From Hypomesus transpacificus (taxonomy: Eukaryota; Chordata; Actinopteri; Osmeriformes; Osmeridae): DNA of 64,000 nt. The stretch is taken from NCBI RefSeq assembly GCF_021917145.1, contig NC_061063.1, positions 9,349,102-9,413,101 of the forward strand, read 5' to 3'. The notes below the pieces were generated by a model. The model did no database searches. It was not told the origin of the DNA and saw only the letters and a program-made list of their open reading frames with translations. Below are positions 16,718 to 32,300 of this stretch, one piece after another (position 1 is the stretch's first letter; each line of letters opens with the position of its first letter). The position numbers were made by a program, and so were the translations under genes.

Positions 16718-19690
16718 GCTGCAGGAGGAGAGCCTTCTTCCCAGGGCGGTTCGGATGATTTATTTCAACACTTCTACACGGAGGTTTGTCAAATTCAACA
16801 GAAATACGTATAGAGGTGTCATCATTTACCTTCCTCAAAAGATTGATCAGTCTCGGTCTATTACTCTCTCGAATATGATCCAGCTAACATGAGACCATCA
16901 CTACTGCTAGCTAACGTTAGCTAGTTGTCTAGCGAGCTCAAATCTATCATCTTATATTAGCTAGATATGCTTAATTTTGTTATCTATTTATCTCATCATT
17001 GCTCTCCATGCTGCTGTCAAAGCCAACGTCCTAGCCATTTACCGATCATGTTCCAGTGGGGCATAGTTATGCCACCACCACCTGGCATTCAAGTCTACCA
17101 CCACCTAGTTAGCTTGCTAGCCGCATGATAGCGCTAACACTCAACTGTATGGTATTGTTATTGTCACACAGGTAAAGCAGATTGAGAAGAGGGACTCTGT
17201 GTTGACCTCAAAGCAGCAAATTGACCGACTGCTCCGACCGGGATCATCTTACTTCAATCTGAACCCTTTTGAGGTATGCGCGGTTACTCTCCGCTAACCC
17301 GGTTAACGTCACTTACACGTTCTCTAATTGAGGTGACCGAGAGAACCGTCTGGACCAATTGGCATTGTTTCGTTCGAATCAGTGTTTTGATCTTGTTATC
17401 AGCGTGCCCTGAACTAGCCTGTCGACATGTTAATGAGACGTCTGTTGGATTGAAGGTGTTGCAGATTGATCCCGAGGTCACAGAGGACGAAATGAAGAAG
17501 AGGTTTCGACAGGTACGAACATGGCATACCAGTTCAGAACAGAGATGTCTCCAACAACTTTTTTTTTCCGTCAAGGATACAATTATCTTCCTCTTTCCCC
17601 CAGCTGTCCATCTTAGTCCATCCAGATAAAAACCAAGATGATCCAGAGAGAGCACAGCAAGCCTTCGAAGGTACAAATGAAATGCTAAGTTGTTCTACAT
17701 TACCCAGTTCAATGGCGGCTGTAATACTAGTGAGGAATTAACGTCACGGTGTCTTTAGCCGTGGACAAAGCCTACAAGCTTCTTCTGGATGGTGAGCAGA
17801 AGAAGAGAGCGGTGGATGTGATCCACGCAGGAAAAGAGTATGTTGAACACAATGTGAGTGATCCTGCTTTTACCATCATCCACACTCCTCAGATGTACGT
17901 ACTTCCCACCCACGACAGTCATCCTCAGAGCTCACCTGCCAATTCCCCCCCCCCCCCAGTTGAATAAGTCAAACTCTGTATTAACACTGCCTGTCTGTGC
18001 CATTGAACTGCCAGCTTTAGGATTGGTGTTGTCTGGCTATAACGGTGTTTGTAAAAAGGTGTTTGTGTGAGTGAGACAGAGGACCCTAGTTCAAAGTGTG
18101 TGGGCAGTTCAGGGAAGGAGCAATACTGCTGAGTGATGCCAAGACCCACCTGTTACATCTGTATCTGTGTAGGTTAGGGTTCACCTTATTGGCTGCATGT
18201 ACACCTGTATCTGTGTAGGTTAGGGTTCACCTGATTGGCTGCATGTACACCTGTATCTGGAGGTTAGGGTTCACCTGATTGGCTGCATGTACACCTGTAT
18301 CTGGAGGTTAGGGTTAACCTGATTGGCTGCATGTACACCTGTATCTGTGTAGGTTAGGGTTCACCTGATTGGCTGCATGTACACCTGTATCTGGAGGTTA
18401 GGGTTCACCTGATTGGCTGCATGTACACCTGTATCTGGAGGTTAGGGTTCACCTGATTGGCTGCATGTACACCTGTATCTGGAGGTTAGGGTTCACCTGA
18501 TTGGCTGCATGTACACCTGTATCTGTGTAGGTTAGGGTTCACCTGATTGGCTGCATGTACACCTGTATCTGGAGGTTAGGGTTCACCTGATTGGCTGCAT
18601 GTACACCTGTATCTGGAGGTTAGGGTTCACCTGATTGGCTGCATGTCTTCATTTCTCCCAGCCTTTCCTGTCACACTTCACTTGACTGTTTAAGTGACTT
18701 CGTTTTTCACTTATTTGTCTTTTTGCTTTTGACAGATGAAGGAGAAGAAGAAACAGCTAAAGAAAGATGGCAAACCCCAGTTTGTTGAGGAAGACGACCC
18801 GGAAATGGTCAGTTACACATTCAAACTCTGCATCTCTGTGTTTATAAGAGAGTGTTTAGGTTGCGAACAAAACGCAGCTTCTCCGTGTCAGATGAAACTC
18901 ATGTCGTCGGCTCACCGGGGAAGAGTGCGTACCACATAGGCTAAGGCCTTACCGCAGGGGACCGGGTTCGATTCTGGCCCGGGGCACATTTCCTGCATGT
19001 GCTCCCCTCTCTCTCCACTTTGTTCTCTCTCTGACTGTCTCTATCAAGATAAAGATCAGAAGAAAATTATATGTTTTTTTGACAGTTACAGATGGACAAA
19101 ACTAATGCCTTGTTTTGTTTTGGTCCTCAGTTCAGGCAAGCGGTGTACAAGCAAACCATGAAGCTGTTTGCAGAACTAGAGATTAAGAGGAAGGAGAGGG
19201 AAGCCAAGGATATGCATGAAAGGTAGGAGGCTGTCAGTCAATCACCTGTGTCCCAAAGCCTCTGGTTGTCCATGTCAACAGAGAGCCAACACAGACGGTT
19301 TAGTATTAAAGCAGCAACCACAATTTGTCTTCTTTTTTTTCTTCTCCACAGGAAAAGGGCGAGAGAGGAAGAGATCGAAACACACGAGAAAGCCAAACGG
19401 GATAGGGAGTGGCAGAAAAACTTTGAGGTATGTTTTAATTTTTTAATGATGGAATTATCGTCGTCATGGTTGATTTGTATCTGGGAAGAAAAGTGCTGTT
19501 TTGGGGGGACAGTACCTGAGATTTTGTACCTGATGCTGTAGGGAGGTAAAATCCTCTTTATTTCCCTCAGGAAACGAGGGACGGTCGAGTGGATAGTTGG
19601 AGAACCTTCCAGGCCAAGGGCAAGAAAAAGGAGAAGAAGAATAGATCGTTCCTTAAGCCGCCCAAGGTTAAGATGGAACAGAGAGAGTGA
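16712..19690 (+). CDS. dnajc8: DnaJ homolog subfamily C member 8
   Basis: Nine exons: 16712-16783, 17172-17273, 17456-17512, 17604-17670, 17759-17853, 18736-18807, 19131-19222, 19352-19427, 19571-19690. They join to 250 aa, close to human DNAJC8 (253 aa). This J-domain protein is found with spliceosomal complexes and is a cochaperone for Hsp70. The J domain begins at FEVLQIDPEVTEDEMKKRFR, and the essential HPD is at residues 83-85 (LVHPDKN). A long Lys/Glu-rich helix follows (KEREAKDMHERKRAREEEIE), then the conserved end (SWRTFQAKGKKKEKKNRSFL). Exon 6 begins after a long intron filled with a minisatellite. The exon phases agree throughout. Confidence 0.96.
18165..18645 (+). repeat. 44/46-bp minisatellite in a dnajc8 intron
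   Basis: About 11 tandem copies of a unit containing GGTTAGGGTTCACCTGATTG and GCTGCATGTACACCTGTATC. Two length forms (44 and 46 bp) differ by GGAGG versus GTGTAGG and are interleaved, which shows repeated unequal exchange. Each unit holds one TTAGGG, spaced out and not in a run, so this is not telomeric DNA. It fills most of the intron between exons 5 and 6. Confidence 0.95.
18912..19062 (+). mobile_element. tRNA-derived SINE in a dnajc8 intron
   Basis: A tRNA-like head ends in a B box (GGGTTCGATTCTGGCCCGGG). A body with TTTCCTGCATGTGCTCCCCT and a TCTCTCTGACTGTCTCTATC end follows, then AAGATAAAG. The copy on the opposite strand at about 31195-31335 in clk2 shares this body. Confidence 0.7.
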
Positions 19691-24420: not shown

Positions 24421-27400
24421 TCACCGGCTGATGTCGCGGTTCCCCTCCCAGCTCTTCCCTCCCGCTGGGTCGCCTGCCACGCCGGCCTCGAAGAAGGGGT
24501 GTTTCAGGGAGTCGGCCAGCGCCAGCCGCTTGGACGGCTCGTACTCCAGCATGCTCTCGATCAGGTCAAACAGCTGGTGGTGATCCTCTGCCTCAGACAG
24601 CAGGTACCTCTGAGGGAGGTGAGGGGGGGGGAGGAAGGTGAGGGAGGTGAGGATGGAGGTGAGGGAGGTGAGGGGGGGGAGGGAGGTGAGGGGGGTGAGG
24701 TGAGGGAGGTGAGGGGGGAGGTGAGGGAGGTGAGGGGGGGGAGGAAGGTGAGGGGGGTGAGGTGAGGGAGGTGAGGGGGGAGGTGAGGGAGGGAGGTGAG
24801 GGGGGAGGTGAGGGAGGGAGGAGGTGAGGGAGGTGAGAAGGGGAGGTGAGAGGTGAGGGAGGGAGGGGGGAGGTGAGGGAGGTGAGGGGGGGAGGTGAGG
24901 TGAGGGAGGTGAGGGGGGAGGTGAGGGGGGAGGTGAGGGAGGGAGGGGGGGAGGTGAGAGGTGAGGGGGGAGGTGAGGGAGAAAGAGAGAGATGTCAGTC
25001 CCTGCAGTGAGACCACAGATGGTGTTTTATCCTCCTGCCTCCTCTCTCCTCCTCTCTGCTCTGGTCCACTTACCCTCAAAGGCTTGCAGTTCTCCCTCAC
25101 GTACTTCCCTGCAGACGAGCTCTCGTCCCAGTCCAGACGGCCTCGGTAGAAATACTTCTGTTTCCTGGAGGGCAGGCAGATCATATGTGAGAGTGTGTGT
25201 GTTAGTGTGTGTGTATGTGTGAGAGTGTGTGTGTGTGAGTGCATGCACGCGTGCAGTTCTGACCTGGTCTTGCGGATCATTCTAGAAGGCACCGGGCCCA
25301 GGATTCTCTCCATCATGGCCAGATGCTCCCTGTTGTCATGCGTCTGAGACAGAGTTTGTCCAGTTAGACAAGCAGCTTCTCGACACAGATAAATACCAAC
25401 CAACAGCCATGTCCAAAACCTGCTCCTGAATCCCAAATCAACTGCCTCCTAAATCATAGACCAACAACTACGGGTACAGTGGAATTCTTGACTGTTTCCT
25501 AACTTTGTTATAACAGACATATATGGTTATTAAAGTAAACTTCCTGAAAGAAAAACACAAACACATTAAATCTGCAAATATCCATTAACAGACTTCCTCT
25601 CAGCTAAGGATCAGTATTGGCTCTTTATGGGGGATAAAGCCCCCCCCCTCCCTGGTTGATCTGTAGTGATGTCATCGGCCCATATGAGGCGCTGGGTCCT
25701 GACCTGGTCCGGCCCCTCCTCACCAGACCTCAACCAGGGGGTAATCCCCTGGGATTAGCAGCCTGCCTCCCTCCTGCTCCCTGAGAATGTCTCTTTCTGT
25801 GTGTGTGTGTGTGTGGGTGTGAGAAAGACAGTGTGTGTGAGAAAGAGAGAGTGGGCCAGAGGAGCAACAAACACACACTTTCTCTCACACACACACAGGA
25901 TAGACAGGAGTGTGTGTGTGTGTCTCGTAGGAGCGCAGGCTAGTTTGTCCCGTACCTGGAACAGCGTGAAGCCCAGGTAGTACTCAAACAGGATGCAGCC
26001 AAGGCTCCACACGTCACAGGGCTGACTCCAGCCCAGCTCTGTAGGACCACAGCACACACAACATGTCACAGGGCTGACTCCAGACCAGCTCTGCAGGACC
26101 ACAGCACACACAACATGTCACAGGGCTGACTCCAGACCAGCTCTGCAGGACCACAGCACACACAACATGTCACAGGGCTGACTCCAGACCAGCTCTGCAG
26201 GACCACAGCACACACAACAGGTCACACACACAGGACCAGTGACCACCACCCACCAGGACACATTCCTTTGTTTAGCAGATGCTTTCATCTACAGCGACAG
26301 ACAAATAGGTTCCCTGCTTAGAGCTGGGAAGGTGTTAGGTTGGTAGAGCTTGCTGGTTGAACTCTAAGGTCAATGTTTGGATGACAACACCAGTTTGCGT
26401 GCTAGGGTTTATGTCTCAACAGAGGACAGTTTGTGAAGCCTTAACAAGCCTAGGAGCCCCTGGCACCACCAGGGAGACACCCGGATTTAGCCTGCGCTTA
26501 AAAGTGCCCCAGAAGCAGTGGCAGGGCTCCAGTAATGTGGTGCTCTCCTGGAGGAGGGCTTTCCAAGAGGCTCAGTGGCACTTCGGAGAAGATGTCAACC
26601 TAGCTCTCAGGAACTACGGTACGAAAATACATCTACGTACCAAAACAAAAGTTGTGTCATGTTCTGATGGAAGGGTGCCAATATCCTAACAGAGGAGTTC
26701 TAATGGAAGAGTTCTAACAGAGGAGTTCTAATGGAAGAGTTCTAACAGAGGAGTTCTAATGGAAGAGTTCTAACAGAGGAGTTCTAATGGAAGAGTTCTA
26801 ACAGAGGAGTTCTAATGGAAGAGTTCTAAAAGAGGAGTTCTAATGGAAGAGTTCTAACAGAGGAGTTCTAATGGAAGAGTTCTAAAAGAGGAGTTCTAAT
26901 GGAAGAGTTCTAAAAGAGGAGTTCTAATGGAAGAGTTCTAAAAGAGGAGTTCTAATGGAAGAGTTCTAAAAGAGGAGTTCTAATGGAAGAGTTCTAAAAG
27001 AGGAGTTCTAATGGAAGAGTTCTAAAAGAGGAGTTCTAATGGAAGAGTTCTAAAAGAGGAGTTCTAATGGAAGAGTTCCAGCCTGTTACTGAGATCTACG
27101 AAGAGTGATCCAGCGTTTTACTGTGACCACAGGAACAGGGTTAGGGGACTGCCCTTGTGTGACCTTGGGGGGGGGGGGGGGGGGGGTCAGAGTTCAGGGT
27201 TAGGTGACTGACCTAGTATGACCTCGGGAGGGGAGGGGGGGTCAGAGTTCAGGGTTAGGTGACTTACCTAGTATGACCTCGGGAGGGGAGGGGGGGTCAG
27301 AGTTCAGGGTTAGGTGACTTACCTAGTATGACCTCGGGAGGGGAGGGGGGGTCAGAGTTCAGGGTTAGGTGACTGACCTAGTATGACCTCGGGAGGGGAG

Positions 27401-29263
27401 GGGGGGTCAGAGTTCAGGGTTAGGTGACTTACCTAGTATGACCTCGGGAGGGGAGGGGGGGTCAGAGTTCAGGGTTAGGTGACTGACCTAGTATGACCTC
27501 GGGAGGGGAGGGGGGGTCAGAGTTCAGGGTTAGGTGACTGACCTAGTATGACCTCGGGAGGGGAGGGGGGGTCAGAGTTCAGGGTTAGGTGACTGACCTA
27601 GTATGACCTCGGGAGGGGAGGGGGGGTCAGAGTTCAGGGTTAGGTGACTGACCTAGTATGACCTCGGGAGGGGAGGGGGGGTCAGAGTTCAGGGTTAGGT
27701 GACTGACCTAGTATGACCTCGGGAGGGGAGGGGGGGTCAGAGTTCAGGGTTAGGTGACTGACCTAGTATGACCTCGGGAGGGGAGGGGGGGTCAGAGTTC
27801 AGGGTTAGGTGACTGACCTAGTATGACCTCGGGAGGGGAGGGGGGGTCAGAGTTCAGGGTTAGGTGACTGACCTAGTATGACCTCGGGAGGGGAGGGGGG
27901 GTCAGAGTTCAGGGTTAGGTGACTGACCTAGTATGACCTCGGGAGGGGAGGGGGGGTCAGAGTTCAGGGTTAGGTGACTTACCTAGTATGACCTCGGGAG
28001 GGGAGGGGGGGTCAGAGTTCAGGGTTAGGTGACTTACCTAGTATGACCTCGGGGGCGCGGTAGTGCCTGGTGGACACGATGGTGCTGTGGTGCTCGTGGT
28101 CGAATGTGGCGCTGCCAAAATCCACCACCCTCACCGCCGTACTCTTCACCGTGCGCTCATCACGTTTCTGTCAGGGAGCAACGGAGCAACACAAGTTATC
28201 CTGCTGGGTGTCGTGTTCGGAATGTAGACAAGACGTTCATGTTCGCGCCAGCTAGATGTCAGTAAGCGACCTTGTATAACCCCGCCTGTAGCAGTCGAGG
28301 AAATCGCTTCTCGAGTTTGAGAAAAATAATTTTGTCCCTCCCTCCTCCTACCTTCTCTACATTGTAGGTCATGGTGAAGTCTGAGTTGACAAACAGGATG
28401 TTTTCTGGTTTCAGGTCTGTGTGGGTCAGCTTGTTGTCATGGAGAACTGTTGGGGGAGGGGGAGGGAGAGAGAGAAAAGCCTGGTTAGAACACAAAACGA
28501 TAAACACTTCCTTCCAAGATGTCTTTCACAGATTAATGATTCCTGTCAGATAAGCAGTCCTATGAGCTGTGGTTGAGCTAGTGGCTCCCCCTTGTGGTTG
28601 AAGGCTGTGTCCTACAGCCAGTGGCGCCACCATGTGGCTGAAGACTGTACTACAGCAAACAATGGTGACTTTTCATGGCAAACGTAAAGGGCGGGAGTGA
28701 TTACGTCAACAGAGGATGAACGAGGGTCTGTGTGCCTGTGAGAACGCTCACGAACGCTGGGGTCAAGGGTCAGACACTGCAAACAAGCCAACACATCAAG
28801 TGTGCTCAACTTCAGTATAACCAGTGCAGCGCCACATCGTTGCAAGCTGGGAGGTCAAATAAGTAAGGTTTATATTTGTTTTTAATCAAATGCATGAACG
28901 TAACACTTAATGGTGTTACTTTCTTGTAAGTGATTTGAAAATAAGTACTTGAAATAAAAACGTATGACTTGACTGAGTTCTTGATTTAAAAAGTATGAGG
29001 TAGATGGAGACGGAGAGAGATGGAGAGAGCAAATGGCCTCCGAGGGAGAACTTACATTTGACGGCCAGGCAGACCTGGTAGGCCATGTGGCGGACCTGGC
29101 TGATGGAGTAAGGCAGATAGTTGTTCTCCTTCAGGAAGTCAAAGGTGCTAAGGGCCAGCAACTCGAAGGAGATGCACATGTGGCCGTGGTAGTCGAACCA
29201 GTCGTGCATCTGGACACACAGGCTGGAGGACAGAGACAGAGAGAGACAGAGAGACAGAGAGAC

Positions 29264-29302
<39 letters not shown>

Positions 29303-32300
29303 AAAAACACCATCAACCACTGGACAGAACGTCCCTCCACACGTGAAGCAGGATGAGGGTAAGAGGGAGAACTGTTGTACAGGAAGTAGGAACAACTATA
29401 ACCATCTCACTCATTGAGCAGACACAGACAGCGGGATTTGAACCTGCGACCTCTCGATCGGGTGTCAGATGCTCTAACCGCTACGCTGAAACTCACTGTT
29501 TGTTCTCTGGGTCCTTCTCGTTGATCCTCTCCAGAACGTTGATCTCCAGACGCGCTGCCTCCTTGTACTTCTCCACGTTCTTGATGATCTTCAGAGCGAC
29601 GTTGGCCCCGCCCCTGAGGAACACAGACGTATGACATGTTACTGACAGACAGAGAGAACACTGCCCCAAACGGCTCCCATAATGCACCACTGACAGGAAT
29701 TTTCGTGCGTAACACATCTGAATGTTAAAAGGAACAGATCAGTGGCAAATTTTTCCCTTTCAAGTTTCCAGATAATGTCTTGTACAAATAAATAACGAAG
29801 AAAAAATAAAAGATACATGTATCAGTGTAGGGAAAAATAAGACTTAATCATTTGATGCCAGTGAAGCATCAAGTTACGGCAGTGAGATGTGGCATGGGGA
29901 CATAAATAGCGCTATTGGTTTTCTATTAGAGGTATCAGTTGCTAAAAGCTCCGGCCGCAGCGGTGCAAAACGCAACTAGTTTGGTTTGCCTTCCAGCTGC
30001 TGTGAAAAACGCAATTGCTCCACTATTAATCTGGGGTGGTCAGGGGGTGTGGGGAGAGAGCAGAGAGAGAAGGGGGGAGAGGGGAGAGAGCAGAGAGAGA
30101 AGGGGGGAGAGGGGAGAGAGCAGAGAGAGAGAAAAGCAGACACAGCCAGTGAGGCAAGGCAGAGAGACAGAGACGGCAAGGCAGAGAGACAGAGACGGCA
30201 AGGCAGAGAGACAGAGACGGCAAGGCAGAGAGACAGAGACGGCAAGGCAGAGAGACAGAGACGGCAAGGCAGAGAGACAGAGAAGCAGAGAGACAGAGAC
30301 GGCAAGGCAGAGAGACAGAGACGGCAAGGCAGAGAGACAGAGACGGCAAGGCAGAGAGACAGAGACGGCAAGGCAGAGAGACAGAGACGGCAAGGCAGAG
30401 AGACAGAGACGGCAAGGCAGAGAGACAGAGACGGCAAGGCAGAGAGACAGAGACGGCAAGGCAGAGAGACAGAGACGGCAAGGCAGAGAGACAGAGAAGC
30501 AGAGAGACAGACTAGATAGAGAGAGACAGGCAGGCGTTCCCCAGGCGGTTATTCAGGGAGTAATCCGCCCAGCCCCAAACGCTTCCATGTGATCGAGTAA
30601 CAACAACAGGCTCAGGAAGGACTAGCGAACACGCTCCAGGACAGGAGCGCTGCGTGAGAGCAGGCCTGCTGATCTACCATCACGCCTGCTGATCTACCAT
30701 CACGCCTGCTGATCTACCATCACGCCTGCTGATCTACCATCACGCCTGCTGATCTACCATCACGCCTGCTGATCTACCATCACGCCTGCTGATCTACCAT
30801 CACGCCTGCTGATCTACCATCACGCCTGCTGATCTACCATCACGCCTGCTGATCTACCATCACGCCTGCTGATCTACCATCACGCCTGCTGATCTACCAT
30901 CACGCCTGCTGATCTACCATCACGCCTGCTGATCTACCATCACGCCTGCTGATCTACCATCACGCCTCATCTCCGCTGTGTTCCAGGGCCAACCTGTGTC
31001 ACAGGTCCCACACCTTGTTTACACCCTGAGAATAACGAGCTAGGTCTTCATAACCCAACAGCTGGACCAACGCGGATGACCGGTTGGCTCCCTGTCGGTC
31101 ACCATAAACCGGGGAGAAACCAGACTCCCAAAGAGGGTCTGGATGACGCGAGCAGACAGCTGGCGTTTGTTTGGCAATTTTTCCTGCTTTATCGGACAGT
31201 TTTAAATAAAGTGCGACAGGAGAAGCAGAGAGAGCGAGCTCCAGACAGAGAGAGGAAGACGTGCAGCAAAGGGCCAAGGCAGGATTTGAACCCTGGCCGC
31301 GGGGTGAGACCTCAGCCTACACGGTACACTCATACACACCTGCGGTGGTCGACACACTGCATCACCCGGCCAAACGTGCCTTCCCCCAGCGTGTTGAGGA
31401 TTTCGTCTGCAACACACACAGAGAGGGGGGAGAGAGGAAGCGGGGAGAGAGGAGGTAAAGGGAATTAGAGATGTGGCCAGAACAGACACTTTAGACACAC
31501 AAAGTGACAGGCGTTCCCTAGCAACGCCCACGACCCCTTCCCCAAAACGTAGAGCGGAACTACGCCACTCAGGACACATAACCTAGGATAATTTGGCGTC
31601 CACGCACCCTCGCACGTGACCGAACCTATGAGGGAGTACCCTTCGACGCCCTCCCCCCTTTACTTTACTGCCTGCAGCCAACAAAATGCTAAAGGCACGT
31701 GTATCCCTTTTTAAAGAGCTGATAAATAGGAGTTAGTGTATAGAAAGAGAGGCTCCTTCTACATAATCCTACAGAGAATACACTAGACAAATCCAGAGAA
31801 ATGTGAAACCTACTGGTTAACGTCATCTGTGTTGTCTTTCAGGAGGTCTAACTTAAGGGTTTGGCAGAGCGTTACGTTTAAAGAGAACGAAGAAACAACT
31901 TCTCGACATCCTTTCTAAACGTTCCCCATTTTTCTACGACTATTCCTGGAAGAGTCCTTCTACAAATTTATGATTTGTTTTTAAATTTAGATTCGGATGC
32001 AAGTTAAACCTGACGCACGAGAGACGAATAAAAACAAATCGAAATTCCTCTGACATGGAACATACCCGTGCTCAAAACCAAAAGCAGTAGCCTAATAATG
32101 TCCAAAAAATTCAAAATACAAAGTAAAAAATACAAAACTTGTTTTGTTGTGTTGTTTTTTTTGCAATCCACCCTGCTTTTTCAGCAAGAGCAAACAACAA
32201 CCCTAGCATCATCATCATCATCATCAGGCACTCCCCCTGTCAGTGAAAGCTCTCTAGTTGTTTTGTTTATACTCATATGGAGAAAGGTTACGATAGAGTA

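Follow-up and report, generated by a model that had tools for sequence, protein, structure and literature searches.

When a minisatellite repeats the end of an exon together with its 5' splice site, do the copies act on splicing, or are they a by-product of repeat growth? This question is raised by one intron of what looks, by its sequence, like the fish clk2 gene in Hypomesus transpacificus. The gene lies in a stretch of 64,000 nucleotides (contig NC_061063.1, positions 9,349,102 to 9,413,101, assembly GCF_021917145.1), the whole of which is referred to here as the window. Within this intron, a 55-bp unit carrying the exon's own donor is repeated sixteen times. The original prediction, made from the letters of the sequence, described this donor array and left its meaning between a tunable sensor of CLK activity and a neutral repeat. 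We consider it likely that the array arose when a minisatellite, growing neutrally, took in the ends of exons, that it causes a slight leak of splicing into products for nonsense-mediated decay (NMD), and that it is not an evolved regulator. The anatomy of the array and its consequences for the reading frame are established here, as is the relative strength of its sites by simple models. The positions of the features are collected in Table 1.

The donor array was recovered by Tandem Repeats Finder (TRF) with 16.1 copies of the unit, and a chance origin is ruled out by TRF together with the exact listing of units. On the transcript strand the unit reads GAGGTCATACTAG/GTAAGTCACCTAACCCTGAACTCTGACCCCCCCTCCCCTCCC, where the slash, here and below, marks the splice junction. 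The unit is made of the last 16 nt of exon 28167-28038 (28053-28038), the donor, and 33 intronic nt that include a C-rich tract, and the C-rich element expected on the transcript is present as CCCCCCCTCCCCTCCC. A script places sixteen CTAG/GT sites at 28037 - 55k, being the true donor and fifteen decoys, four of them GTAAGT and eleven GTCAGT, exactly the counts that had been predicted. From the true donor inwards, the base at donor position +3 runs AACCCCCCCCCACAAC. Across units 1-15 this is the sole variable column of the 55, with A in five units and C in ten. The +3 base of unit 16 is likewise C, and this unit has a C-run instead of the CCTCCCCTCCC end. The lone variable column was considered as a sign of selection and rejected, since nine of the 55 unit positions lie within the 9-nt donor, which makes one variable column there unsurprising, and drift can decide which variant is amplified.

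Next to the array lies a decayed 17th half-unit, whose donor GT is lost (AAGGGCAGT) and whose alignment score is reached by none of 2000 shuffles. It carries C at the place of donor +3, which suggests that the C state is old or ancestral, and its presence indicates an array of some age, whose edge has had time to decay. The core of the array appears to have been recently homogenised. On the template (plus) strand, each unit of 27171-28053 bears the G-rich tract GGGAGGGGAGGGGGGG, and a simple G-quadruplex pattern has 17 start positions within the array. This tract may contribute to the instability of the array. The copy number is taken from one assembly, and an error of assembly in the length or the copy order of an otherwise real array has to be considered, as units differing at one column only are hard for short reads and the window has one run of 500 N. 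However, the ordered arrangement of A-type and C-type units, the variant last unit and the decayed half-unit look like a real array, and we hold an assembly error to be extremely improbable.

The gene was located on the minus strand with tblastn, using a human CLK2 query, in pieces from 34172 down to 24424. With a query derived from the exons, the best matches were the PDB CLK2 chains (E 2.7e-83), with CLK4, CLK3 and CLK1 weaker. The exons around the array (28446-28352, 28167-28038, 26038-25956, 25343-25264, 25164-25074 and a last one to 24421, all on the minus strand) form, when joined, one open frame ending in GNRDISR and a stop. The intron between 28167-28038 and 26038-25956 measures 1999 nt, of which three arrays fill 1448 nt.

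The reading frame gives every decoy the same consequence. As predicted, an in-frame TGA follows the true junction (28014-28012), and all fifteen decoy donors, joined to the true acceptor, run through it, the stop preceding the last junction by more than 55 nt. Sixteen donors and four acceptors of this intron were enumerated, and only one of the 64 pairs, the true one, keeps the frame. In each of the remaining 63, more than 55 nt separate a stop from the last junction downstream of it, which makes them predicted NMD targets. By reading frame and the 55-nt rule, alternative choice of a site here would lead to a premature stop, as is found in autoregulated poison splicing, with NMD being predicted. 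Skipping of the 83-nt exon 26038-25956 would also break the frame, because 83 is not a multiple of 3.

The strength of the decoys is not uniform. Donors and acceptors were scored with an approximate vertebrate matrix, and the U1 duplex energy was added. The sequence TAG/GTAAGT scores 10.98 with a duplex energy of -10.6 kcal/mol, against 6.95 and -6.5 kcal/mol for TAG/GTCAGT. The C at +3 therefore makes eleven of the fifteen decoys weaker for U1 and leaves four strong. The original prediction had called each copy a poison donor; this holds by frame for all fifteen, but the idea that all are equally poison donors is rejected on site strength. Weak sites are not dead sites, however, since clk2 itself appears to use CAG/GTCAGA, with the rare C at +3 and a score of 6.96, as the native donor of exon 25343-25264 (at 25264). 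Among 7651 GT sites scored on both strands of the window, 20 reach at least the score of the true donor (five in the donor array) and 244 at least that of the C type (16 in the array), the latter at 1.8 per kb on the minus strand outside the array.

Local folding was predicted for the same sites. The A-type donor folds with UAGGU paired to ACCUA, and the C-type donor with GGUCAG paired to CUGACC. Mean donor accessibility, in the six of sixteen donors tested, was 0.40-0.46 for three of the A type and 0.25-0.26 for three of the C type, with a background of 0.45 over 559 other GT sites. Positions +3 to +6 were mostly exposed in two of the three A-type donors tested, and buried in all three of the C type. 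The fold stability of the donor regions was no different from shuffles, with minimum free energy z-scores of -0.25, -0.15 and 0.18. Donor hairpins acting as a switch were rejected because the fold energies match those of shuffles, and the difference in accessibility is kept as a weak hint.

Donor-bearing minisatellites are known from human genes. In ABCA7, the variable number tandem repeat (VNTR) of intron 18 has a 25-bp unit that begins with the exon-18 donor. Use of the donor of the next unit retains one unit, shifts the frame and brings a premature stop; such one-unit retention amounts to 2 +/- 1%, independent of VNTR size, whereas skipping of the following exon rises with VNTR size (PMC5954066). 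Both genes have a minisatellite directly after the exon, with a unit that carries the exon's own donor and an extension that leads to a premature stop. The clk2 array differs in that its 55-bp unit includes 16 exonic nt, the stop falls in the first unit, one donor base varies, and the intron has its acceptor repeated as well, in a second array. The effects in ABCA7 were measured, those in clk2 are predicted. In the human IFI6 (6-16) minisatellite, two downstream repeat units serve as donors (PMC4526556, citing Turri 1995), so that repeat units are again alternative donors at an exon end. The IFI6 alternatives encode protein isoforms, whereas the clk2 alternatives all bring a stop. The clk2 array is of the same kind as those of ABCA7 and IFI6, being a tandem unit with the native donor that begins at the exon end.

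These human arrays bear on whether the clk2 array might be completely silent, with the true donor always winning and the decoys used at the level of noise. Of the sixteen donors, the true one lies furthest upstream; it closes an exon of normal size (130 nt) and is the strongest of seven native donors scored, and only four of the fifteen decoys equal it. Nevertheless, the nearest decoy is identical over the entire 55-bp unit, and the comparable arrays of ABCA7 and IFI6 do use downstream units. Complete silence seems to us rather unlikely.

The original prediction missed a second array, which lies at the opposite end of the intron and repeats its acceptor. This 52-bp array repeats CTGTGGTCCTGCAG/AGCTGGTCTGGAGTCAGCCCTGTGAC and offers three decoy acceptors, with exon starts at 26194, 26142 and 26090, that score 6.82 each versus 7.08 for the true acceptor at 26038. 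At the place of the exon's CTG GGC, its copies have CTG GTC, by which a conserved Gly would become Val, and so the copies have drifted from the exon. Between the two lies a 28-bp array, 16 of whose AGs score 5.1-5.7 versus 7.1 for the true acceptor. The decoy acceptors were considered as outstanding sites and rejected: 124 intronic AGs were scored, and among the best 45 of the 124 are four unrelated ones (8.1, 7.63, 7.51 and 7.23) that outscore the true acceptor at 7.08. Little weight is therefore placed on the decoy acceptors and the TTAG sites. Runs of C before GAGG at the donor, and TGTGAC at the acceptor, are short shared words which, as far as the sequence suggests, could have seeded the duplications.

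The TAG within each donor unit invites a different reading, in which the copies are excised seamlessly and stepwise. The true donor joined to a copy's TAG would regenerate the same junction, as at the ratchet points of recursive splicing, and the decoys would be removed without trace. At a ratchet point, a strong acceptor with its pyrimidine tract directly abuts a donor (YAG/GTRAGT). In each unit, a CTGAC that resembles a branch point and a pyrimidine tract rich in C precede TACTAG/GTAAGT. Tandem duplication of AGGT can provide a new intron with both its splice sites, as in the ATP2A1 model (PMC4974935). The likeness is that tandem copies bearing AG/GT create extra splice sites; the clk2 copies, however, lengthen an existing intron, and no new intron is seen. 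The unit's TAG scores only 3.66 as an acceptor and the preceding GAG 4.41, against 7.08 for the true acceptor. The smallest step would be 55 nt, which is very short for a vertebrate intron. We would give stepwise excision hardly any credence.

Whether the repeats are drawn to splice sites was judged across the gene. In the window, 82 TRF rows were merged by hand to 24 arrays, with short simple repeats and low-scoring rows dropped. Eight of the 24 lie in clk2 and make up 27.5% of it. Another clk2 intron holds a 22-bp array (30153-30497) and a 20-bp array of 15.2 copies at 100% identity (30664-30967), and a 44-bp array of 11 copies (18154-18646) has 10 donor-like sites on the minus strand. The 22 splice junctions of clk2 (15 exact and seven approximate, the latter being edges of tblastn hits) were compared with the arrays by circular shifts. 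Three of the 22 lie in an array or no more than 2 nt from one, versus a mean of 6.1; 93% of shifts give at least three junctions and 17% give at most three. In this test of 22 junctions in one gene, arrays were not enriched at clk2 splice junctions. The three junctions are the two ends of the 1999-nt intron and the acceptor of the last exon (24609), 2 nt outside an array.

This last array (24611-24992), of CCTCACCTCC type, extends to the final acceptor of clk2, whose pyrimidine tract it provides. Read on the plus strand, antisense to clk2, it presents 32 donor-like sites, 27 of them strong, versus 16 and five in the 55-bp array. Donor-dense arrays can thus arise without a splicing role. In 14 of the 24 arrays, no site above the thresholds was found on either strand. 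Near-perfect homogeneity is also common in the window, as in the 20-bp array of 15.2 copies at 100% and the 28-bp array of 14 copies at 99%. Arrays that are common, not drawn to splice sites and rich in donors without a role support neutral growth in which exon ends were captured by chance. Neutrality was the better half of the original prediction, and the neutral null accounts for what is seen. In the wider literature, polymorphic minisatellites are known from introns of fish genes, GH of sea bream among them (PMC3045353), and a nematode minisatellite is over-represented near alternative splicing regions (PMC4039745). Among the matches listed in the literature, no title concerned an array of donors in clk2, or an intron with arrays of both donor and acceptor.

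The other half of the original prediction was the sensor. When donors compete, SRSF1 favours proximal sites and hnRNP A1 distal ones. Highly phosphorylated serine/arginine-rich (SR) proteins would, on this proposal, shift donor choice to the intron-proximal decoys, leading to stops, NMD and less CLK2, while low CLK activity would restore the true donor, as a negative feedback tuned by copy number. All decoys are poison by frame and four match the true donor exactly, as such a sensor would have it. In the sources consulted, CLK1 is reported to act on the splicing of its own exon 4, with exon 4 skipping (PMC11571805; PMC10082069), and CLK activity to drop as temperature rises in alligator and turtle (PMC10082069). 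The parallel is one of gene family and of feedback through the gene's own splicing. It concerns, however, exon 4 skipping and intron retention in CLK1, at another place in the gene than the kinase-domain intron and not by alternative donors, and no positive evidence for a CLK sensor was found in this analysis.

Several results speak against the sensor. The weakening C at +3 occupies eleven of the fifteen decoys; the three such decoys tested are predicted to be buried in GGUCAG and CUGACC pairing, although fold energies equal those of shuffles; retention of the donor unit in ABCA7 is low and not dependent on size (PMC5954066); and arrays are not enriched at junctions. The sensor is possible but unsupported, in that the gene, the frame and the identity of sites fit it and nothing here favours it over neutral growth. 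We regard it as very unlikely. A fuller version, with fifteen donor and three acceptor decoys, all poison, and the +3 base setting decoy strength, would make the intron a copy-number-tuned brake on CLK2, dependent on SR phosphorylation and, in an ectotherm, on temperature; its chances seem slender indeed. The interpretation put forward in the original prediction is, as a whole, partly supported.

Neutral growth with a small leak is the reading that we prefer, and it may be set out as follows. Slippage-type tandem duplication in a minisatellite-rich clk2 would have captured the end of the exon and, in a separate event, the acceptor that follows it; both would then have been amplified within one intron. 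Nearly every transcript would be spliced from the first, true donor. The few others, spliced mainly from the nearest strong decoy (27982) or to a decoy acceptor, would meet a premature stop and NMD. This leak would depend little on copy number, and the low, size-independent retention of a unit in ABCA7 supports a neutral array with a small leak. An effect of length, if any, would more likely be skipping of the 83-nt next exon, out of frame, by analogy with ABCA7.

Some points weigh against this reading. Four decoys share the whole unit with the true donor, and competition is possible between donors that are strong and identical. The gene encodes a splicing kinase, where an array of splice sites is more suggestive than elsewhere, and it seems unusual for an intron to have such arrays at both its ends. 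The junction-shift test covers a single gene, in which seven of 22 junctions are approximate, and the leak through decoys is a prediction from sequence and site models.

Table 1. Features of the clk2 intron and its flanking exons (positions in the window; approx., approximate)
Feature	Position	Strand	Basis
clk2 exon, kinase domain, 130 nt; upstream of and overlapping the 55-bp array	28038..28167	minus	tblastn, 95% to human CLK2 residues 311-354; splice signals acag/...CTAG/gtaagt
True 5' splice site, GTAAGT	28032..28037	minus	matrix score 10.98; U1 duplex -10.6 kcal/mol
In-frame TGA reached by any exon extension beyond the true donor	28012..28014	minus	sequence, frame enumeration
55-bp x 16.1 minisatellite, 99% match	27171..28053	minus	TRF; unit listing
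Nearest decoy donor, GTAAGT, strong type	27977..27982	minus	unit listing, site scores
Other strong GTAAGT decoys	first bases 27432, 27322, 27267	minus	unit listing, site scores
Span with 11 weak GTCAGT decoys, three strong decoys among them	27207..27927	minus	unit listing, site scores
Weak GTCAGT decoys	first bases 27927, 27872, 27817, 27762, 27707, 27652, 27597, 27542, 27487, 27377, 27212	minus	
Decayed 17th half-unit, 26/30 identical, donor GT lost	27136..27165 (approx.)	minus	local alignment; 0/2000 shuffles reach score
28-bp x 14 array, 99% match, weak acceptor-like CCATTAG/A and CTTTTAG/A	26686..27078	minus	TRF
52-bp x 4.2 array, 97% match, repeats acceptor with the first 26 nt or so of the next clk2 exon	26009..26226	minus	TRF, sequence
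Next clk2 exon, 83 nt, true acceptor cctacag/AGCTGG	25956..26038	minus	tblastn; frame intact after splicing

The intron represents a natural test substrate with multiple donors and multiple acceptors, in which near-identical 5' splice sites stand at an even spacing of 55 nt and differ in one base that contacts U1. The gene in which it lies encodes a kinase that controls SR proteins. RNA-seq could reveal how the spliceosome chooses among the copies, and whether neutral repeat growth burdens a splicing regulator or is co-opted by it.

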